Shown in pieces: positions 1,139 to 17,108 of a stretch of DNA of 64,000 bases (position 1 is its first letter; the number at the start of each line of letters is the position of its first letter). Position numbers and translations under genes: made by a program. The stretch covers positions 112,056-176,055 of the forward strand of contig JARGOX010000013.1 of the NCBI GenBank assembly GCA_029233925.1. Direction: 5' to 3'. The notes beneath the pieces were generated by a model that saw only the letters and a list, made by a program, of their open reading frames with translations, was not told the origin of the DNA and searched no databases. The DNA comes from Rhizobiaceae bacterium. Its GTDB lineage: Bacteria; Pseudomonadota; Alphaproteobacteria; Rhizobiales; Rhizobiaceae.

Positions 1139-1864
1139 ATGAGCAGAGTTGCAGTCGTTACCGGAGGAACACGCGGAATAGGAGCCGCAATTGCCGTTGC
1201 TCTCAAGGAAGCCGGTTATCAGGTCGCCGCAAGTTATGCGGGCAATGACGAGAAGGCCAATGCATTCAAGGCAGAGACCGGTATCGCGGTCTACAAGTGG
1301 GACGTGGGCGACTATCAGGCCTGCGTTGATGGCATTGTACAGGTTGAAGCCGATCTTGGTCCGGTTGAGGTGCTGGTCAACAATGCGGGCATTACCCGTG
1401 ACGCCATGTTCCACAAGATGCTCCCCGAACAGTGGAGTGCGGTGATCAATACGAATCTGACAGGCCTGTTCAACATGACCCATCCGGTCTGGGTTGGCAT
1501 GCGTGATCGCGGCTTTGGCCGGATTATCAATATTTCCTCGATCAATGGCCAAAAAGGCCAGATGGGTCAGGTCAATTATTCAGCCGCCAAAGCAGGTGAC
1601 CTGGGGATGACCAAGGCGCTGGCCCAGGAGGGTGCAGCCAAAGGCATTACGGTCAATGCCATTTGTCCCGGCTATATTGGAACCGAAATGGTGCGTGCCG
1701 TGCCTGAGAAGGTGCTCAATGAGCGTATCATTCCCCAGATTCCCGTGGGACGGCTTGGCGAACCAGAGGAGATCGCCCGTTGCGTGGTCTTTCTGGCATC
1801 CGACGATGCCGGCTTTATCACGGGCTCGACGATCAGCGCCAATGGCGGTCAATATCTCATCTGA
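1139..1864 (+). CDS. phaB: acetoacetyl-CoA reductase
   Basis: NADPH-dependent short-chain dehydrogenase reducing acetoacetyl-CoA to (R)-3-hydroxybutyryl-CoA for PHB synthesis. The product is 241 residues, the usual PhaB length. Visible motifs are the nucleotide-binding TGGTRGIG near residue 9, NNAG, and the catalytic Ser-Tyr-Lys set (ISSING, then NYSAAKAG). The ATG at 1139 was chosen because GGGGAG lies just upstream; an in-frame TTG at 1127 would sit on that site. It is probably cotranscribed with phaA and is followed by a strong terminator. Confidence 0.96.
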   Translation: MSRVAVVTGGTRGIGAAIAVALKEAGYQVAASYAGNDEKANAFKAETGIAVYKWDVGDYQACVDGIVQVEADLGPVEVLVNNAGITRDAMFHKMLPEQWSAVINTNLTGLFNMTHPVWVGMRDRGFGRIINISSINGQKGQMGQVNYSAAKAGDLGMTKALAQEGAAKGITVNAICPGYIGTEMVRAVPEKVLNERIIPQIPVGRLGEPEEIARCVVFLASDDAGFITGSTISANGGQYLI

Positions 1865-1883
1865 TCGTTTTTGATCTGTTTGC

Positions 1884-1918
1884 AAAAGACGGCGTCCATC
1901 GGGCGCAGTCTTTTTTTT
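1884..1918 (+). terminator. rho-independent terminator after phaB
   Basis: AAAAGAC pairs with GTCTTTT, and the inner arms GCGTCC/GGGCGC close on a 3-nt loop with one internal mismatch. A run of eight T follows directly. This is a textbook intrinsic terminator 20 bp after the phaB stop, ending the phaAB unit before the repeat array. Confidence 0.85.
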
Positions 1919-2266
1919 GGCGGTAATTTTACGATCACCTGCTTTGCCTTCGGCCCACCCAACGCAGTGACCGATTCGCCCATTGTCTGCAGCATCGCGT
2001 CTTGCACTGTTGTGCGAGGGCCATGTTTTGGTCAGTTAGCCGTCAAACGTTAACGGCTGGCCGCTTTCTGGTGTGTCGGGTACGCCTGACAGACAGGAAA
2101 ATAGTGTCCGTGTGGGCGGCGGAACGCTAGATGTTGTGAGAACAAAAAGCGAATCTGCCCAGGTCAGTGATTCGTCGCCGATTCGTTCCGCTTTTGGTCG
2201 GAATCCTAACGCAGAAGACGATTTCTGGCGAAATTCTATTCATCAAAAATTTACAAATATCTATTC

Positions 2267-2282
2267 TTAACAAAAGGTTAAC
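2267..2282 (+). promoter_or_regulatory. CtrA-type box, repeat unit 1
   Basis: TTAA-N7-TTAAC (spacer CAAAAGG) at the right end of repeat block 1 matches the consensus of the alphaproteobacterial cell-cycle regulator CtrA. The match is visible; binding is inferred. Confidence 0.65.
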
Positions 2283-2639
2283 GGGTTTTTTGCATCACAA
2301 TGATGCCCTGCCTGATTTGAGCTGACTTGGCTAAAAGATGACTTCTGATTCGCCAATGAGCCCAACCGTGTGTTCTTCCCGATAAACGCATGCCCGCAAT
2401 CGGGTCGTCTGGCTGCCAAAGGTTAACAGCAGGCTCGGTTCCTGTCTGGTGAACGTCTGCGGATTGCGGAAAAATTGTGCCTTCGCCTACGGCTGAACGC
2501 TAGATGTTGTGAGAACAAATACGGAATCTGTACAGGTCGGTGATTCGTCGCTGATTCGTTCCGCTTTTGGTCGAAATCCTAACGCAAAACATGATTTCTG
2601 GCGCATTTGCATTCATCAAAAATTTACAAATATCTTTTC

Positions 2640-2655
2640 TTAACAAAAACTTAAC
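2640..2655 (+). promoter_or_regulatory. CtrA-type box, repeat unit 2
   Basis: TTAA-N7-TTAAC (spacer CAAAAAC) at the same position of repeat block 2, preceded by the same AT-rich tract as in unit 1. Confidence 0.65.
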
Positions 2656-3048
2656 AGGATAGCTCTTCCAGAGCCGATGGGTGGTGCAGGGCGACCCGGA
2701 TGGCTCAAGAAATGCCATTTGCTGCCAGAGTGATTCGCACATTGCCTTTGGTCACGTGATTTCATCGGTTTGTTTGCGCTGTTGCCTGCAATGTCGTCTG
2801 GCAGGGTTTTGGCCGTTTGGCCGCCAAAGGTTAAAATATGGCTGGGTTATGGTCGGGTGTCTGCACCCGATGGTGATTGAAGTTGTGTCTGCGTCCCTGG
2901 CTGAACGCTAGATGTTGTGAGAACAAAAAGCGAATCTGCACAGGTCAGTGATTCGTCGCCGATTCGTTCCGCTTTTGGTCGTATTCCTAATAAATATCAC
3001 TATATATAGGTAGGCATCTGTTAACCGGATATTGAGGAATATTGTTAT

Positions 3049-3063
3049 TTAACAAAAAGTTAA
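3049..3063 (+). promoter_or_regulatory. CtrA-type box, repeat unit 3
   Basis: TTAA-N7-TTAA (spacer CAAAAAG) at the end of block 3. It is retained although the sequence between it and the GANTC triplet has diverged from units 1 and 2, which argues that the box itself is selected. Confidence 0.65.
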
Positions 3064-3378
3064 TGAAGAAATTTCGTGTGGAATCCGCAATGGCGTCAAA
3101 GGTTAAGATTTGAGGAAAATTCGATAAGTTTTCAGCCCCTGTTCCAGCATGAAGATTCAGTATCTAGTGGTAGCCTTCACCGGAAAGGACACATCTTGCC
3201 GTGAACAAAACCTGAATCATCGCGAGTCAGCGATTCGTCGCCGATTCGTTCCACCCCTGTTCCAAATGTTAATGGCCGGCCTTCCAGGGGCTTCAAAGAA
3301 TGTTCGTTTTGCCGTGTGTCACGGTCCATTGTCGTGCTAATAGGCACCCCTTTCCAATGTGAAGATGTTTCCCCAGTC

Positions 3379-6300
3379 ATGTCCCAATCCCCTCCCAGGC
3401 AAGATCAACCCATGATATTCAGCGGCCGCGATGTCGTTGCGGTTCTTGGGCCGACCAATACCGGCAAAACGCATTATGCGATTGAACGCATGGTGGCCCA
3501 TGAGAGCGGTGTCATAGGACTGCCGCTTCGATTGCTGGCACGCGAAGTCTATGAGCGCATTTGTCTGAAAGTCGGTCGCGATAAAGTCGCGCTGGTGACC
3601 GGTGAGGAAAAGATCAGTCCGGCGGGCGCGCGCTATCAGGTCTGCACGGTGGAAGCCATGCCGCAGCAGACGGACGCGGCATTTGTAGCCATCGACGAGG
3701 TTCAACTGGCAGGTGACCTGGAGCGCGGCCATGTGTTCACCGACCGGATTCTCAATTTGCGGGGACGCCAGGAAACCCTGTTGCTGGGTGCTGGAACCAT
3801 GCGCGGCATTCTTGAAAAACTGCTGCCCGGCCTGACCGTGATTTCACGGCCGCGCCTTTCCCATCTTGCCTATGCGGGCGCAAAGAAGATTACGCGGCTG
3901 CCACGCCGGTCCGTCATTGTGGCGTTTTCGGCCGATGAGGTTTACGCCATCGCCGAGCTCATACGTCGCCAGCGCGGTGGCGCAGCTGTTGTTCTGGGCG
4001 CGCTGAGCCCGCGAACCCGCAATGCGCAGGTCGCGCTTTATCAGGCCGGAGATGTCGAATATCTGGTGGCCACCGACGCGATCGGGATGGGGCTCAATCT
4101 GGATGTTGATCATGTGGCATTTGCACAGGACCAGAAGTTTGACGGCTACCAGTATCGCAAATTGAACCCCTCCGAACTGGGACAGGTCGCAGGGCGTGCG
4201 GGTCGACATTTGCGCGATGGTACTTTTGGCGTGACGGGCCGGGTCGATTCGTTTTCGAATGATCTGGTCGAGCGTATTGAAAGCCATGATTTTGCGCCGA
4301 TGAAAGTGTTGCAGTGGCGCAGCAAGCAATTTGATTTCAGTTCTCTGACGTCACTGCAGGCCAGTCTCGACACGACACCGACGCTACCGGGATTGACCCG
4401 GTCCCTGCCGGTTGTCGATCAGCAGGCGCTTGAACATCTGGTGCGCGATCGCGATGTGGTTGATCTGGCGTCGACGCCTGAACGGGTGGAACAGCTCTGG
4501 GATGTATGTGCGCTTCCCGATTATCGCAGGATCACGCCTGCCCAGCATGCGGATATGATATCCACGATCTATGGAGATATTGTGCGCTCCGGCGCTATTC
4601 GCGAAGATTATATTGCCGAACAGATACGCAGGGCTGACCGAACGGACGGTGAGATCGACACTTTATCGGCGCGCATTTCCCAGATAAGAACCTGGACATA
4701 TGCTGCGCACAGACCCGGATGGCTTGCGAATCCGTCACACTGGCAAGAAAAGACTCGAGAAATCGAGGATCGACTGTCAGATGCACTGCATGAGAGGTTG
4801 ACGAAACGCTTCGTTGACCGCAGGACATCTGTGCTCATGAAGCGGTTAAGAGAGAATGCGATGCTTGAAGCTGAAATTGGTGTTGATGGTGATGTTTTTG
4901 TTGAAGGACATCACGTGGGGCAATTGGCGGGATTCCGCTTTACGCTGGACTCAAGTGCAGAGGGGCCGGACGCCAAGGCTGTCCTGGCCGCTGCGCAGAA
5001 ATCTCTGGGGCTGGAATTCGAGGCGCGGGCGGCGCGCCTGCACGCTTCCGGCAATAGCGACTTTGCCCTTGGATCAGACGCTGTTCTACGCTGGATGGGT
5101 GATCCCGTCGCACGATTGACCGATAGCGATTCGATTTTGCGACCGCGATCGATTTTGCTGGCCGACGAACAATTGTCCGCGCAGGCCAGAGACGTTGTTG
5201 TCGCCCGCATCGAGCGTTTCGTGAATCACCATATCAGCACGATCCTCAAGCCGCTGGACGAACTTGCGCGCGCCGAGGATCTGGAGGGACTGGCAAAGGG
5301 ACTGGCCTTCCGGCTGGTTGAAGCCCTGGGAATTCTGTTCCGCCGTGATGTGGCCGATGATGTCAAGGCGCTGGATCAGGATGCCCGTGGATCCTTGCGG
5401 CGTTATGGCGTGCGCTTTGGCGCCTATCACATTTTCATGCCCGCTCTGCTCAAACCGGCGCCCGCAGAATTGATCACATTGCTTTGGTCGCTGCGCAACA
5501 ATGGGTTTGACAAACCGGGCTACGGCGAAATCACCGGAGCACTGGCAGCCGGTCGGACCTCGATTGTGACCGATGCGTCTTTCGAGCGGGAATTCTACCG
5601 GCTTTCAGGCTTCCGCTTTCTGGGCAAGCGCGCAGTGCGCGTCGATATTCTCGAGCGGCTTTCCGATCTGATCCGTCCGCTGTTGCAGTGGAAGCCCAAT
5701 GGTGCCGCGCGTCCGGACGGTGCCTATGATGGCCGCCGTTTTGTCACCACACCCGCCATGTTGTCGATCCTTGGTGCGACGCCGGATGACATAGAGGAAA
5801 TTCTCAAAGGGCTTGGGTATCGTGCCGACACGGTCACCGCCGAGGACGTTTCGGCGCACCTGGCATCCGTGGATGAAAAAATCCTGCAGGCCGAGGCAGC
5901 CAAGGCGGCAGAAGCACAGGCGGCCGCAGTGCAGGCAGAAGAGTCTGCCGCAGCGCCAGCAGAAGAGACCAGTGCTGCAGCGCCGACTGCTGCCGTAGAC
6001 ACGGCACCCGAAGCAACGGCCGCACAGCCGGAGGCCGAACCAGCGAGTGTCGTTTCCAGTGCTGACGCAGACAAAACCGAAACGGCACCTCAAGTCCCCG
6101 CAGCAGATGCAGGAAGCACTTTGGAAGCGGCAGCAGTTTCCGCCGCCCCGGATGGACATACTTCAGATGGTCAAAGCCCAGAGGACCAGGCAGCACATGT
6201 CCCGACATCTGATGGGCAAGCAGACGCCTCAGACGTTGAGGCGCCCAAGCCGGTGCTGTTGTGGCACCCGGCAGGGCGTACCGACAACAATCGCGGACGC

Positions 6301-6579
6301 AACAGGAACCAGCAGAAGCCGAACCAGGGTGCCGGCCGGGGCAACAACAGGAACAACAGCGAAGGTGATCGTTCCGGCAAGCCTCAGAACAGGCCAAATG
6401 ATCGGTCGAACGATCGGGCCAATGACAAACCAAGGGGCAAGGGCGGCTTCAAAGGCAAGTCGCAGAAACCGGCGAAAGGCAATCAGTTCGCTGCACGCCC
6501 ACCGCGCAAGGAAAAACCCATCGATCCGGATTCACCCTTTGCCAAACTCGCTGCCCTCAAGGAGCAGATGAAAAAGTAA
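3379..6579 (+). CDS. SUV3-like DEAD/DEAH-box helicase with basic C-terminal tail
   Basis: Superfamily 2 helicase of 1066 residues, related to mitochondrial RNA helicase SUV3 and annotated MgpS in some rhizobia. Walker A is GPTNTGKTHYAIERM near residue 25. The Walker B region is DEVQLAGD. Conserved helicase motifs continue through ATDAIGMGLNLD and QVAGRAGRH. After the catalytic part comes a long Ala/Glu-rich low-complexity stretch, then an Arg/Asn/Gly/Lys-rich tail typical of an RNA-binding extension. Start choices are GTG 3316, ATG 3379 and ATG 3412. I chose 3379 because the helicase fold begins shortly after; no strong ribosome binding site decides it. Partner and substrate are unknown; the adjacent S4 gene suggests RNA. 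Confidence 0.85.
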   Translation: MSQSPPRQDQPMIFSGRDVVAVLGPTNTGKTHYAIERMVAHESGVIGLPLRLLAREVYERICLKVGRDKVALVTGEEKISPAGARYQVCTVEAMPQQTDAAFVAIDEVQLAGDLERGHVFTDRILNLRGRQETLLLGAGTMRGILEKLLPGLTVISRPRLSHLAYAGAKKITRLPRRSVIVAFSADEVYAIAELIRRQRGGAAVVLGALSPRTRNAQVALYQAGDVEYLVATDAIGMGLNLDVDHVAFAQDQKFDGYQYRKLNPSELGQVAGRAGRHLRDGTFGVTGRVDSFSNDLVERIESHDFAPMKVLQWRSKQFDFSSLTSLQASLDTTPTLPGLTRSLPVVDQQALEHLVRDRDVVDLASTPERVEQLWDVCALPDYRRITPAQHADMISTIYGDIVRSGAIREDYIAEQIRRADRTDGEIDTLSARISQIRTWTYAAHRPGWLANPSHWQEKTREIEDRLSDALHERLTKRFVDRRTSVLMKRLRENAMLEAEIGVDGDVFVEGHHVGQLAGFRFTLDSSAEGPDAKAVLAAAQKSLGLEFEARAARLHASGNSDFALGSDAVLRWMGDPVARLTDSDSILRPRSILLADEQLSAQARDVVVARIERFVNHHISTILKPLDELARAEDLEGLAKGLAFRLVEALGILFRRDVADDVKALDQDARGSLRRYGVRFGAYHIFMPALLKPAPAELITLLWSLRNNGFDKPGYGEITGALAAGRTSIVTDASFEREFYRLSGFRFLGKRAVRVDILERLSDLIRPLLQWKPNGAARPDGAYDGRRFVTTPAMLSILGATPDDIEEILKGLGYRADTVTAEDVSAHLASVDEKILQAEAAKAAEAQAAAVQAEESAAAPAEETSAAAPTAAVDTAPEATAAQPEAEPASVVSSADADKTETAPQVPAADAGSTLEAAAVSAAPDGHTSDGQSPEDQAAHVPTSDGQADASDVEAPKPVLLWHPAGRTDNNRGRNRNQQKPNQGAGRGNNRNNSEGDRSGKPQNRPNDRSNDRANDKPRGKGGFKGKSQKPAKGNQFAARPPRKEKPIDPDSPFAKLAALKEQMKK

Positions 6580-8888: not shown

Positions 8889-9749
8889 ATGCGTGACGTT
8901 CATGCGGGACAAAGTATGATCAGAGCTGCCTTGGCAGCGCCTTATCTTGAGCGTGATGAGGAGCACGCCTTGGCGGTCAGCTGGAAGGAAAACCGCGATC
9001 AGGAGGCAATGCACAAGATCGCTACGGCGCATATGCGGCTGGTGATTTCGATGGCTGCCAAATTTCGCAATTTCGGTTTGCCAATGAATGATCTCATTCA
9101 GGAGGGCCATGTGGGTCTTCTGGAAGCGGCCGCGCGCTTTGAACCGGATCGCGACGTGCGATTCTCAACCTATGCCACCTGGTGGATCAGAGCCTCCATG
9201 CAGGATTACATCCTGCGCAACTGGTCTATCGTGCGCGGCGGTACAAGTTCTGCTCAAAAAGCCCTGTTTTTCAACCTGCGGCGCCTGCGCGCCAAGCTAT
9301 GGAGCAACCAGGAGGATTTTTCCGAGAGTGCGATGCACCAGGAAATTGCGTTGGCCGTCGGTGTGAATGTCAAAGACGTGGCGGTCATGGATGCGCGGCT
9401 CTCCGGCTCGGATACGTCACTGAATTCACCGGTATCCGATTCCGAATCGCCCGGTTCGGATCGCATTGACTTCCTGAAGAGCGAAGAGCCATTGCCCGAT
9501 GAACAGGTGGGTATCATGATAGACAATGAGAGGCGAACGCAGTGGATCAAATCGGCTTTGGCAAAACTCAATGCAAGGGAAATGCAGATCATTCAGGAGC
9601 GGCGTTTGAGTGATGACGGGGCAACTTTGGAATCGCTCGGCAGCAGCCTTGGCATATCAAAGGAAAGGGTACGGCAGATTGAGAGCCGGGCATTGCAGAA
9701 GCTGAAATGCGCGCTGGAAAAAGACTCGCCCGCCATCACGAGCATATGA
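8889..9749 (+). CDS. rpoH2: RNA polymerase sigma-32 factor (RpoH2 type)
   Basis: Sigma-70-family heat-shock type factor of 286 residues. Region 2 reads MNDLIQEGHVGLLEAAARFE and STYATWWIRASMQDYI. It is followed by the RpoH box (QKALFFNLRR) that distinguishes sigma-32. Region 4 helix-turn-helix is near the C terminus (LGISKERVRQIESRALQKLK). The ATG follows GGGAG. Position after CarD and FdxA matches rpoH2 of rhizobia, where it serves oxidative and general stress rather than classical heat shock. A TGGAAC-N5-GTTCCA dyad lies upstream (8773-8789), but I could not place a convincing EcfG-type promoter. Confidence 0.9.
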   Translation: MRDVHAGQSMIRAALAAPYLERDEEHALAVSWKENRDQEAMHKIATAHMRLVISMAAKFRNFGLPMNDLIQEGHVGLLEAAARFEPDRDVRFSTYATWWIRASMQDYILRNWSIVRGGTSSAQKALFFNLRRLRAKLWSNQEDFSESAMHQEIALAVGVNVKDVAVMDARLSGSDTSLNSPVSDSESPGSDRIDFLKSEEPLPDEQVGIMIDNERRTQWIKSALAKLNAREMQIIQERRLSDDGATLESLGSSLGISKERVRQIESRALQKLKCALEKDSPAITSI

Positions 9750-9921
9750 AGTGCTGGTCCCCAAAGGCAATGCACAGGGGTTCGAAAAGACCTGACGTCT
9801 ATGGGCCTGTTGAAATCAGGGAATTTCAGAAAGATTAAGGTTCTCGAGCAGTGTTAAAAAGATTAATGCAGTTTTAATCCGTTATAGCTAGAACTATTCA
9901 TCAATATTATTGGGGTGATTG

Positions 9922-16904: not shown

Positions 16905-16951
16905 AAGCGCCTCCTGTGATTGAAAGAAAAGGAAAAAGCCGCTTATGGCGT

Positions 16952-17036
16952 CTAATCCCTCCGCCGGTATGAGCCGGATCAGGTTCTTCGGGTTGGCAAA
17001 GCCTCTCAGCAGACCACAAATGGCCGGCACCCCGTT
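16952..17036 (-). ncRNA. TPP riboswitch (THI element)
   Basis: The minus strand shows the thi-box hallmarks in order: GGGGTGCC, CTGAGA, then ACCTGATCCGG followed by ATACCGGCGGAGGGA. It lies 48 nt upstream of the thiB start, in the leader of thiBPQ. A T-rich stretch (GCGGCTTTTTCC) lies between aptamer and ribosome binding site and could belong to the expression platform. Expected to repress the importer when TPP is abundant. Confidence 0.95.
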
Positions 17037-17108
17037 AGAGCAAGTACCGTCTTAATATGCGTTATCGGCGCTGGCAAGTGCCTGAAAAGCTGCTATGTGC
17101 ATCGCAAG

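Follow-up and report, generated by a model that had tools for sequence, protein, structure and literature searches.

Between phaB and a gene for a Suv3-like helicase, the window (by which we mean the whole stretch of 64,000 nucleotides analyzed here) carries at positions 1973-3252 a tandem array of four units, whose starts lie 373, 408, and 282 bp apart and each of which ends in a 77-nt core that precedes the same helicase gene in relatives well beyond the family. Our reading, to which we assign a probability of roughly 45%, is that the array is a cis-regulatory DNA module, engaged by several proteins and read through its CcrM/GcrA methylation state, which ancestrally served the helicase locus and has been amplified in this lineage. 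The block may thus represent an undescribed control element coupling this point of the chromosome to the cell cycle. Its defined 77-bp sequence gives a starting point for finding out what reads the GANTC state outside Caulobacter, and the element makes the Suv3-like helicase a possible cell-cycle target, a link that we did not find in the literature searched: nothing in the open-licence literature, taken without supplements, was recognized as a description of the element, and no helicase is named in the main texts of the CtrA, GcrA, and methylation papers that were searched by term.

Repeat units and site statistics in the window

A repeat search of the array returns 188-nt copies three times in register, at 2098-2285, 2471-2658, and 2879-3066 (100, 85, and 68% identity to the first), as well as a 70-nt block four times, starting at 2140, 2513, 2921, and 3203. 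Delimiting each unit from three bases 5′ of its GTTAA box through the end of the 77-nt core gives 166 nt for each of units 1-3 and 176 nt for unit 4 (Table 1). The equal length of three copies noted in the preliminary description (there "161-bp" blocks) is therefore reproduced on the present cut, and its count of "three full, one decayed" holds for the number of units but not for the state of the last, as unit 4 is not decayed but of a helicase-proximal type, with the best family-model score of the four (74.5 bits vs 68.8-70.7 bits for units 1-3). The cores of units 1-3 share 67-72 of 77 positions among themselves, and unit 4 shares 52-54 of 77 with them.

Table 1. Positions in the window of the array units, their motifs, and the flanking genes
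Feature	Coordinates	Strand	Remarks
phaB	1139..1864	+	upstream neighbor in most family loci
Unit 1, distal type	2046..2211	+	GTTAA box then core 2135-2211; GANTC at 2151, 2169, 2180, 2201
Central GATTCGTCnnnGATTCGTTC block, unit 1	2169..2188	+	same block in units 2-4 from 2542, 2950, 3232
TTAA-N7-TTAA 3′ of unit 1	2267..2281	+	CtrA-type box, motif match
Unit 2, distal type	2419..2584	+	core 2508-2584; GANTC at 2524, 2542, 2553
TTAA-N7-TTAA 3′ of unit 2	2640..2654	+	CtrA-type box, motif match
Unit 3, distal type	2827..2992	+	core 2916-2992; GANTC at 2932, 2950, 2961
TTAA-N7-TTAA 3′ of unit 3	3049..3063	+	CtrA-type box, motif match
Unit 4, proximal type	3099..3274	+	core 3198-3274; GANTC at 3154, 3214, 3224, 3232, 3243
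Suv3-like helicase gene	3412..6579	+	DEXQc_Suv3 + Helicase_C; conserved downstream neighbor

Only one open reading frame within the array reaches 80 aa, a minus-strand frame of exactly that length, and the region holds a single promoter-like match (2809-2837; 1.7 expected), with none at any core. Searching the genome's own sequence with the 188-nt query matched four places, every one in the array; the 20-nt centre has four exact matches, again all in the array, and nine more with three mismatches (two for a reversed control pattern). No scattered copies were found elsewhere in the genome by this genome-wide match search, so that the element is a single locus and not the randomly scattered repeat family that had been considered at the outset. 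Elsewhere in the window, an ordinary TPP riboswitch lies at 16939-17044 on the minus strand (60.5 bits, above the Rfam gathering score).

GANTC is rare over the 64-kb window (118 sites vs 282 in shuffles) and dense in the array, where 19 lie within 1.28 kb although the density in the remainder of the window predicts 2.0 (Poisson P about 8e-13); the units hold 3-5 sites each, and in a scan of the 64 kb the 12 GANTC-densest 1,280-bp windows all overlap the array. The array is thus non-random in its richness in CcrM-type sites, as first proposed. The consensus of the CtrA-type box is TTAA-N7-TTAA, which occurs four times in the window against 0.14 expected from shuffles, three of the four being inside the array; the remaining one (9863-9877) lies between a sigma-factor ORF (8889-9749) and an ORF that begins at 9919.

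The conserved core, its distribution, and its helicase linkage

The anatomy of the core was read from a census of 117 distinct cores, obtained from the 119 hits that 70 loci yielded at E<0.01, with L072 and L119 left out. Units are about 160-175 bp long and consist of a GTTAA box followed by a core of the form GAAC-N7-GAA ... GTCAG[C/T]GATTCG-N5-G-NTTCGTTC-N7-GNTC ... TTAAC. Its strongest block, [C/T]GATTCG, stands at the core centre, is identical in 117/117 counted cores, and fits YGAKTCK, so that the centre is probably a methylation site of CcrM type in the sequence context that the literature gives for GcrA. In 63/117 cores GATTC recurs 11 bp further on, always as [C/T]GATTCG, and TTAA occurs near +37 in 70/117. 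TTAA clusters a second time around -119/-129 in the family loci and around -118/-127 in the order loci, which marks out a unit of about 160 bp; this cluster is absent in the class loci. By their sequence, the GAAC/GTTC and TTAA boxes look like sites of one or two further DNA-binding proteins.

The invariance of GATTCG is in part a matter of ascertainment, because model selection favors it. When the same 70 loci are searched at E<10, 21 of 146 hits are without GATTCG, and among the 15 listed, 14 are the reverse complement of the core and one is a degenerate distal unit of L036, whose centre reads CGAGTCG (still YGAKTCK) and which at E 0.013 falls below the cut of the census. Two further loci have lost the central site: L157 has lost the left arm as well and retains the right arm and the second GATTC, and in L158 the core centre reads GACTTG. 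Nor is the spacing absolutely fixed, since L154 and L159 are one base short between the left box and GATTCG. Among individual loci, L113 and L114, from genomes of 1.3-1.4 Mb, have the core ending 71-73 nt from the helicase start and GATTCG flanked, as judged by eye, by inverted repeats of 8 and 6 bp. L148 (G684), a marginal core match (E 1e-3), has GATTCG three times, spaced by exactly 11 bp, some 220-242 nt upstream of the start of the helicase gene.

Two sequence models were used to follow the core among genomes, namely a sequence-only family model built from 56 family cores (the degenerate L036 distal unit excluded) and a wider model (alignment A3) of 74 cores, which combines 46/56 family cores with 28/29 prepared order cores. 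Confinement to one strain, raised in the preliminary description, does not describe what was found: the family model matched 182/247 family genomes (83/109 genera) and 245/347 genomes drawn from the order, and the wider model matched 37/385 genomes drawn from the class, namely four genomes of the order, including the one studied here, and 33 from outside it, one of which (G652, locus L119; E 1e-3, no helicase) we judged to be a chance match. A few of the 182 family matches are probably chance as well, as G030 and G072, with matches near E 1e-4, have no core upstream of the helicase gene; plain DNA comparison matched 23 of 61 relatives, one of them by chance (L026). These sequence searches leave it well supported that the element occurs in many alphaproteobacterial families inside and outside the order, at a single locus, and that it has been amplified in tandem here.

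Matches number up to five per genome in the family and order searches. At E<0.01, two or more cores are present in 22/26 family and 13/18 order loci, and one core in 25/25 class loci, so that the type of unit 4, the helicase-proximal one, is probably ancestral. A second, distal unit is usual in the Hyphomicrobiales, and in the present lineage this distal unit was amplified in tandem to three: four units, three of them distal, occur both in the window and in its close relative G002, and each of the six other genus members searched has two matches.

In 67 of the 70 loci examined, the gene downstream of the core is this helicase, a linkage that, together with the depth of conservation, goes beyond the preliminary description. 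The helicase is Suv3-like (PF22527 and PF00271). The core lies upstream of the gene and on its strand in 26/26 family loci used (the window and 25 others; L026 and L035, which have no helicase, were left out, L026 being judged a chance match within a coding ORF) and in 18/19 order loci, and among the class loci (L094-L118, of which L103 is from the window's own order) the core precedes the helicase on its strand within 0.9 kb in 23/25. A helicase is present in 24 class loci, and in 16 of these the distance from the end of the core to the helicase start is 71-160 nt (starts extrapolated from alignments). Upstream neighbors, named by eye, vary among loci while the helicase stays. Two replicons carrying the locus deserve a remark: NZ_CP072868.1 (L038), the 489-kb "plasmid p3" of Rhizobium sp. 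NLR16a, has a phaAB-helicase-fdxA-CarD-sigma-32 locus with three units, and CP090106.1 (L036, L051, L052), of 3.7 Mb and entitled "plasmid pSymB" of S. meliloti, looks like a mislabeled chromosome, since its core genes include parAB, mnmEG, and one for sigma-32.

Loss of the element was followed in 26 family genomes picked for having no match (20) or a weak match (6), of which 24 have the helicase. Among the 23 usable upstream regions, five have a core at E 1e-4 or better and one has a remnant at 0.04; in the other 17 of these 23, picked as they were for absent or weak matches, no core was found at E 0.5. Rearrangement is not the sole route to loss, since phaB is still upstream in the element-free L160, L162, and L165.

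Candidate readers of the core

All 36 genomes of the class draw in which the element is credible encode GcrA (best E 8.5e-35 or lower), and 35 of the 36 encode a RAMA domain, which we take to be the CcrM C-terminus. The RAMA domain does not discriminate, because it is near-universal and is also present in most element-negative genomes (37/44, comprising 19/19 GcrA-positive and 18/25 GcrA-negative ones, with G652 counted here). Among 246 helicase-bearing class genomes scored for GcrA at E<1e-32, with kinship uncorrected, 35 have both a core match and GcrA, one has only the match (the chance match), 62 have only GcrA, and 148 have neither. The association of element and GcrA is therefore weakened, being confounded by kinship and faced with 62 helicase genomes that have a strong GcrA match and no core match.

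The motif YGAKTCK is given for GcrA-activated sites in PMC7987155 and PMC8725594, and it is the Haakonsen 2015 motif as quoted in papers that cite that study. GcrA prefers methylated over unmethylated GANTC, as do its S. meliloti and Brucella orthologues, according to PMC3667746. PMC7987155 adds that YGAKTCK does not by its presence alone serve as an effective proxy of GcrA regulation, that there is almost no extended site preference in Brevundimonas, and that GcrA targets are extensively rewired between close relatives. Given this reported rewiring, one would not expect a non-coding element centred on a methylation-type site to keep to one locus across families and orders. The GcrA/CcrM-controlled promoters of Caulobacter genes such as ctrA, mipZ, and podJ resemble the element in having a CcrM-type site in the YGAKTCK context upstream of a gene in genomes that encode GcrA; they differ in that the element's putative site lies within a 77-nt composite that is conserved across the class and repeated in tandem, whereas GcrA targets are reported to be rewired (PMC7987155). 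MucR is a further candidate reader: in Caulobacter and S. meliloti, it protects the GANTC sites of its targets from CcrM (PMC5172544).

In the mechanism that we propose, replication would leave the core GANTC sites hemimethylated, CcrM would re-methylate them late in the cell cycle, and GcrA with RNA polymerase, or a competing protein, would read the methylation state, such that the locus, ancestrally the Suv3-like helicase gene, would be expressed in step with fork passage. The sequences themselves show the anatomy and conservation of the element, its linkage to the helicase, and the presence of GcrA and CcrM-type genes; the methylation of these sites, the binding of GcrA or CtrA, and any effect on transcription or other function we infer.

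In Caulobacter, Cori and other CtrA-bound regions combine TTAA boxes with GANTC sites. The element is like them in its TTAA boxes, the perfect TTAA-N7-TTAA of the window, and the presence of GANTC in the same block, and it differs from Cori in not lying at hemE, in the window's lack of DnaA boxes, and in the rarity of full boxes among relatives. Full TTAA-N7-TTAA boxes are a local feature, present in 7/26 family loci and not conserved in most relatives; TTAA stands more often as a single half-box, near -119/-129 and +37. CtrA is a plausible binder of the TTAA boxes. Of the CtrA and CcrM combination first proposed for the array, the CcrM part is supported by the core centre and the CtrA part, in its full-box form, does not extend to most relatives; the suggestion of a cell-cycle regulatory array is likewise sustained on its CcrM side, by a site in YGAKTCK context, and weak on its CtrA side.

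Competing explanations

The alternative that survives best, although we regard it as unlikely, is an autonomous chromosomal site concerned with the titration or sensing of CtrA, GcrA, or DnaA, with replication timing, or with chromosome organization, to which the helicase would merely be the usual neighbor. It draws on three lineages that keep cores without an adjacent helicase, which argue that the element may not serve solely as the promoter of that gene. In L105 (G640), the core is kept and no helicase is found in the genome at E 1e-20; by eye, an open frame begins a few bases downstream and a divergent frame resembles the acyl-CoA-dehydrogenase-like neighbor of other loci. In L096 (G786), 4.7 kb separate the core from the helicase, as compared to 122 nt in L097 of the same family. 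In G335, two cores in L072 and two in L179 have no helicase in the 92 kb read, and those of L179 sit where a DUF3108 gene and an Exo_endo_phos (exonuclease-III-like) gene converge, between their ends, with a ParA-type gene (Pfam) and, by eye, parB, rsmG, and mnmG frames adjoining. A helicase-linked copy may exist in G335, as four of the five matches in the genome were located. The unit is possibly dispersed in that lineage, where two of the four helicase-free cores lie beside the ParA-type gene.

An autonomous site would also accord with the tandem copies of most family and order loci and with the several matches in some genomes, against which stand the single copy in all 25 class loci and the one gene that lies downstream in 67/70 loci. 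Its position on the chromosome is similarly two-sided. The usual marker of the alphaproteobacterial origin is hemE, from which the element is less than 18% of the genome length away in 23/25 single-contig genomes (related genomes, with lengths partly rounded and a second, nearer hemE in G064), but the distance spans 37 kb to 2.3 Mb over all 25; in S. meliloti Ak57, the element is about 100 kb from parAB-mnmEG. Five distinct TTATCCACA DnaA boxes lie within 400 bp of cores (L017, L074, L082, L101, and L102), the flanks having two in 271 kb, although these are mostly coding and hence no matched control; most loci have no such box, and none of three consensus patterns was found from -400 to +200 of the window's cores. 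The absence of the element from many relatives argues in addition that it is not essential. An origin-like role, one of the early suggestions, was rejected in the sense of oriC, since in none of the 25 genomes is the element at hemE and most loci, that of the window among them, lack a DnaA box; it is kept only within the autonomous-site reading.

Known sites of this kind include datA, a chromosomal titration or checkpoint site. A second is crtS, so described in PMC11711613. The element resembles both in being a conserved, possibly autonomous, non-coding locus found once per chromosome, and differs in being usually linked to the helicase, missing in many relatives, and without a known binder. 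A more specific proposal, that the element is an autonomous CcrM-sensing nucleoprotein control site of the alphaproteobacterial chromosome, usually placed before the Suv3-like helicase gene, which would report fork passage or titrate cell-cycle regulators and whose copy number would be tuned by tandem duplication, seems to us rather doubtful.

It is about equally doubtful that the element is an operator for a LexA-like or other regulator, in which the paired GAAC-N7-GAA and GTTC-N7-GTTC would be the real sites and GANTC would be incidental. The alphaproteobacterial LexA (SOS) box is GAAC-N7-GAAC. The left arm of the core reads GAAC-N7-GAA in 90/117 cores and the right arm exactly GTTC-N7-GTTC in 56/117; in addition, GATTCGTnnnnGATTCGT in the core is an 11-bp direct repeat, and cores match their own reverse complement weakly, which makes the core an imperfect inverted repeat. 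The exact GAAC-N7-GAAC is, on the other hand, limited to 12/117 cores, the right arm of distal units is mostly GGTC, GATC, or GGCC, and the conservation of GATTCG exceeds that of the boxes. An 11-bp periodicity of conservation, as for boxes on one helix face, was not significant (724/5000 permutations as high). The element is like LexA boxes in its GAAC/GTTC half-sites and their 11-bp spacing, and unlike them in its degenerate second half-site, in a central GATTCG that falls outside such a box, and in being confined to a single locus; a LexA box alone would not account for the composite at one genomic place. The genome's own lexA promoter (L086) does contain GAAC-N7-GAAC, which favors the operator; there it is accompanied by an inverted GTTC-N7-GTTT and then GATTCG, a layout loosely like that of the element.

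That the units belong to leader RNAs or small RNAs, the latter having been among the first suggestions, is improbable, and a structured RNA was rejected, its pairing being negative or mixed against controls and matched by no Rfam family (1800-3500, up to E=1). The family cores can be drawn as a hairpin around GATTCG, and a 10-bp version of it in 56 family cores has 458 paired cells vs 452 ± 2.4 in shuffles (reached by 13/500) and 12 double changes vs 9.5 ± 1.9; its commonest combination at one pair is, however, A-C. In the 74 cores of A3, the informative part is the inner helix alone: 70.8% of its cells pair, and the covariation was reached by 1/500 shuffles, yet it was equalled when the partner was slid by +3. 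RNAalifold on 57 cores gave 5 pairs with no compensatory change, and the top 40 covarying column pairs of the 117 cores form no consistent helix, the top mutual-information pairs mostly reflecting length variation left of the core. A terminator-like stem past phaB (1892-1906, then T) belongs to a class no more numerous in the region than in shuffles.

A neutral tandem repeat without function is the weakest reading and hardly credible, for although recent tandem duplication is plain in the four units of the window and G002 as against the two matches in each of six genus members, the 77-nt core is conserved at one locus across families and orders, on which ground this reading was already disfavored.
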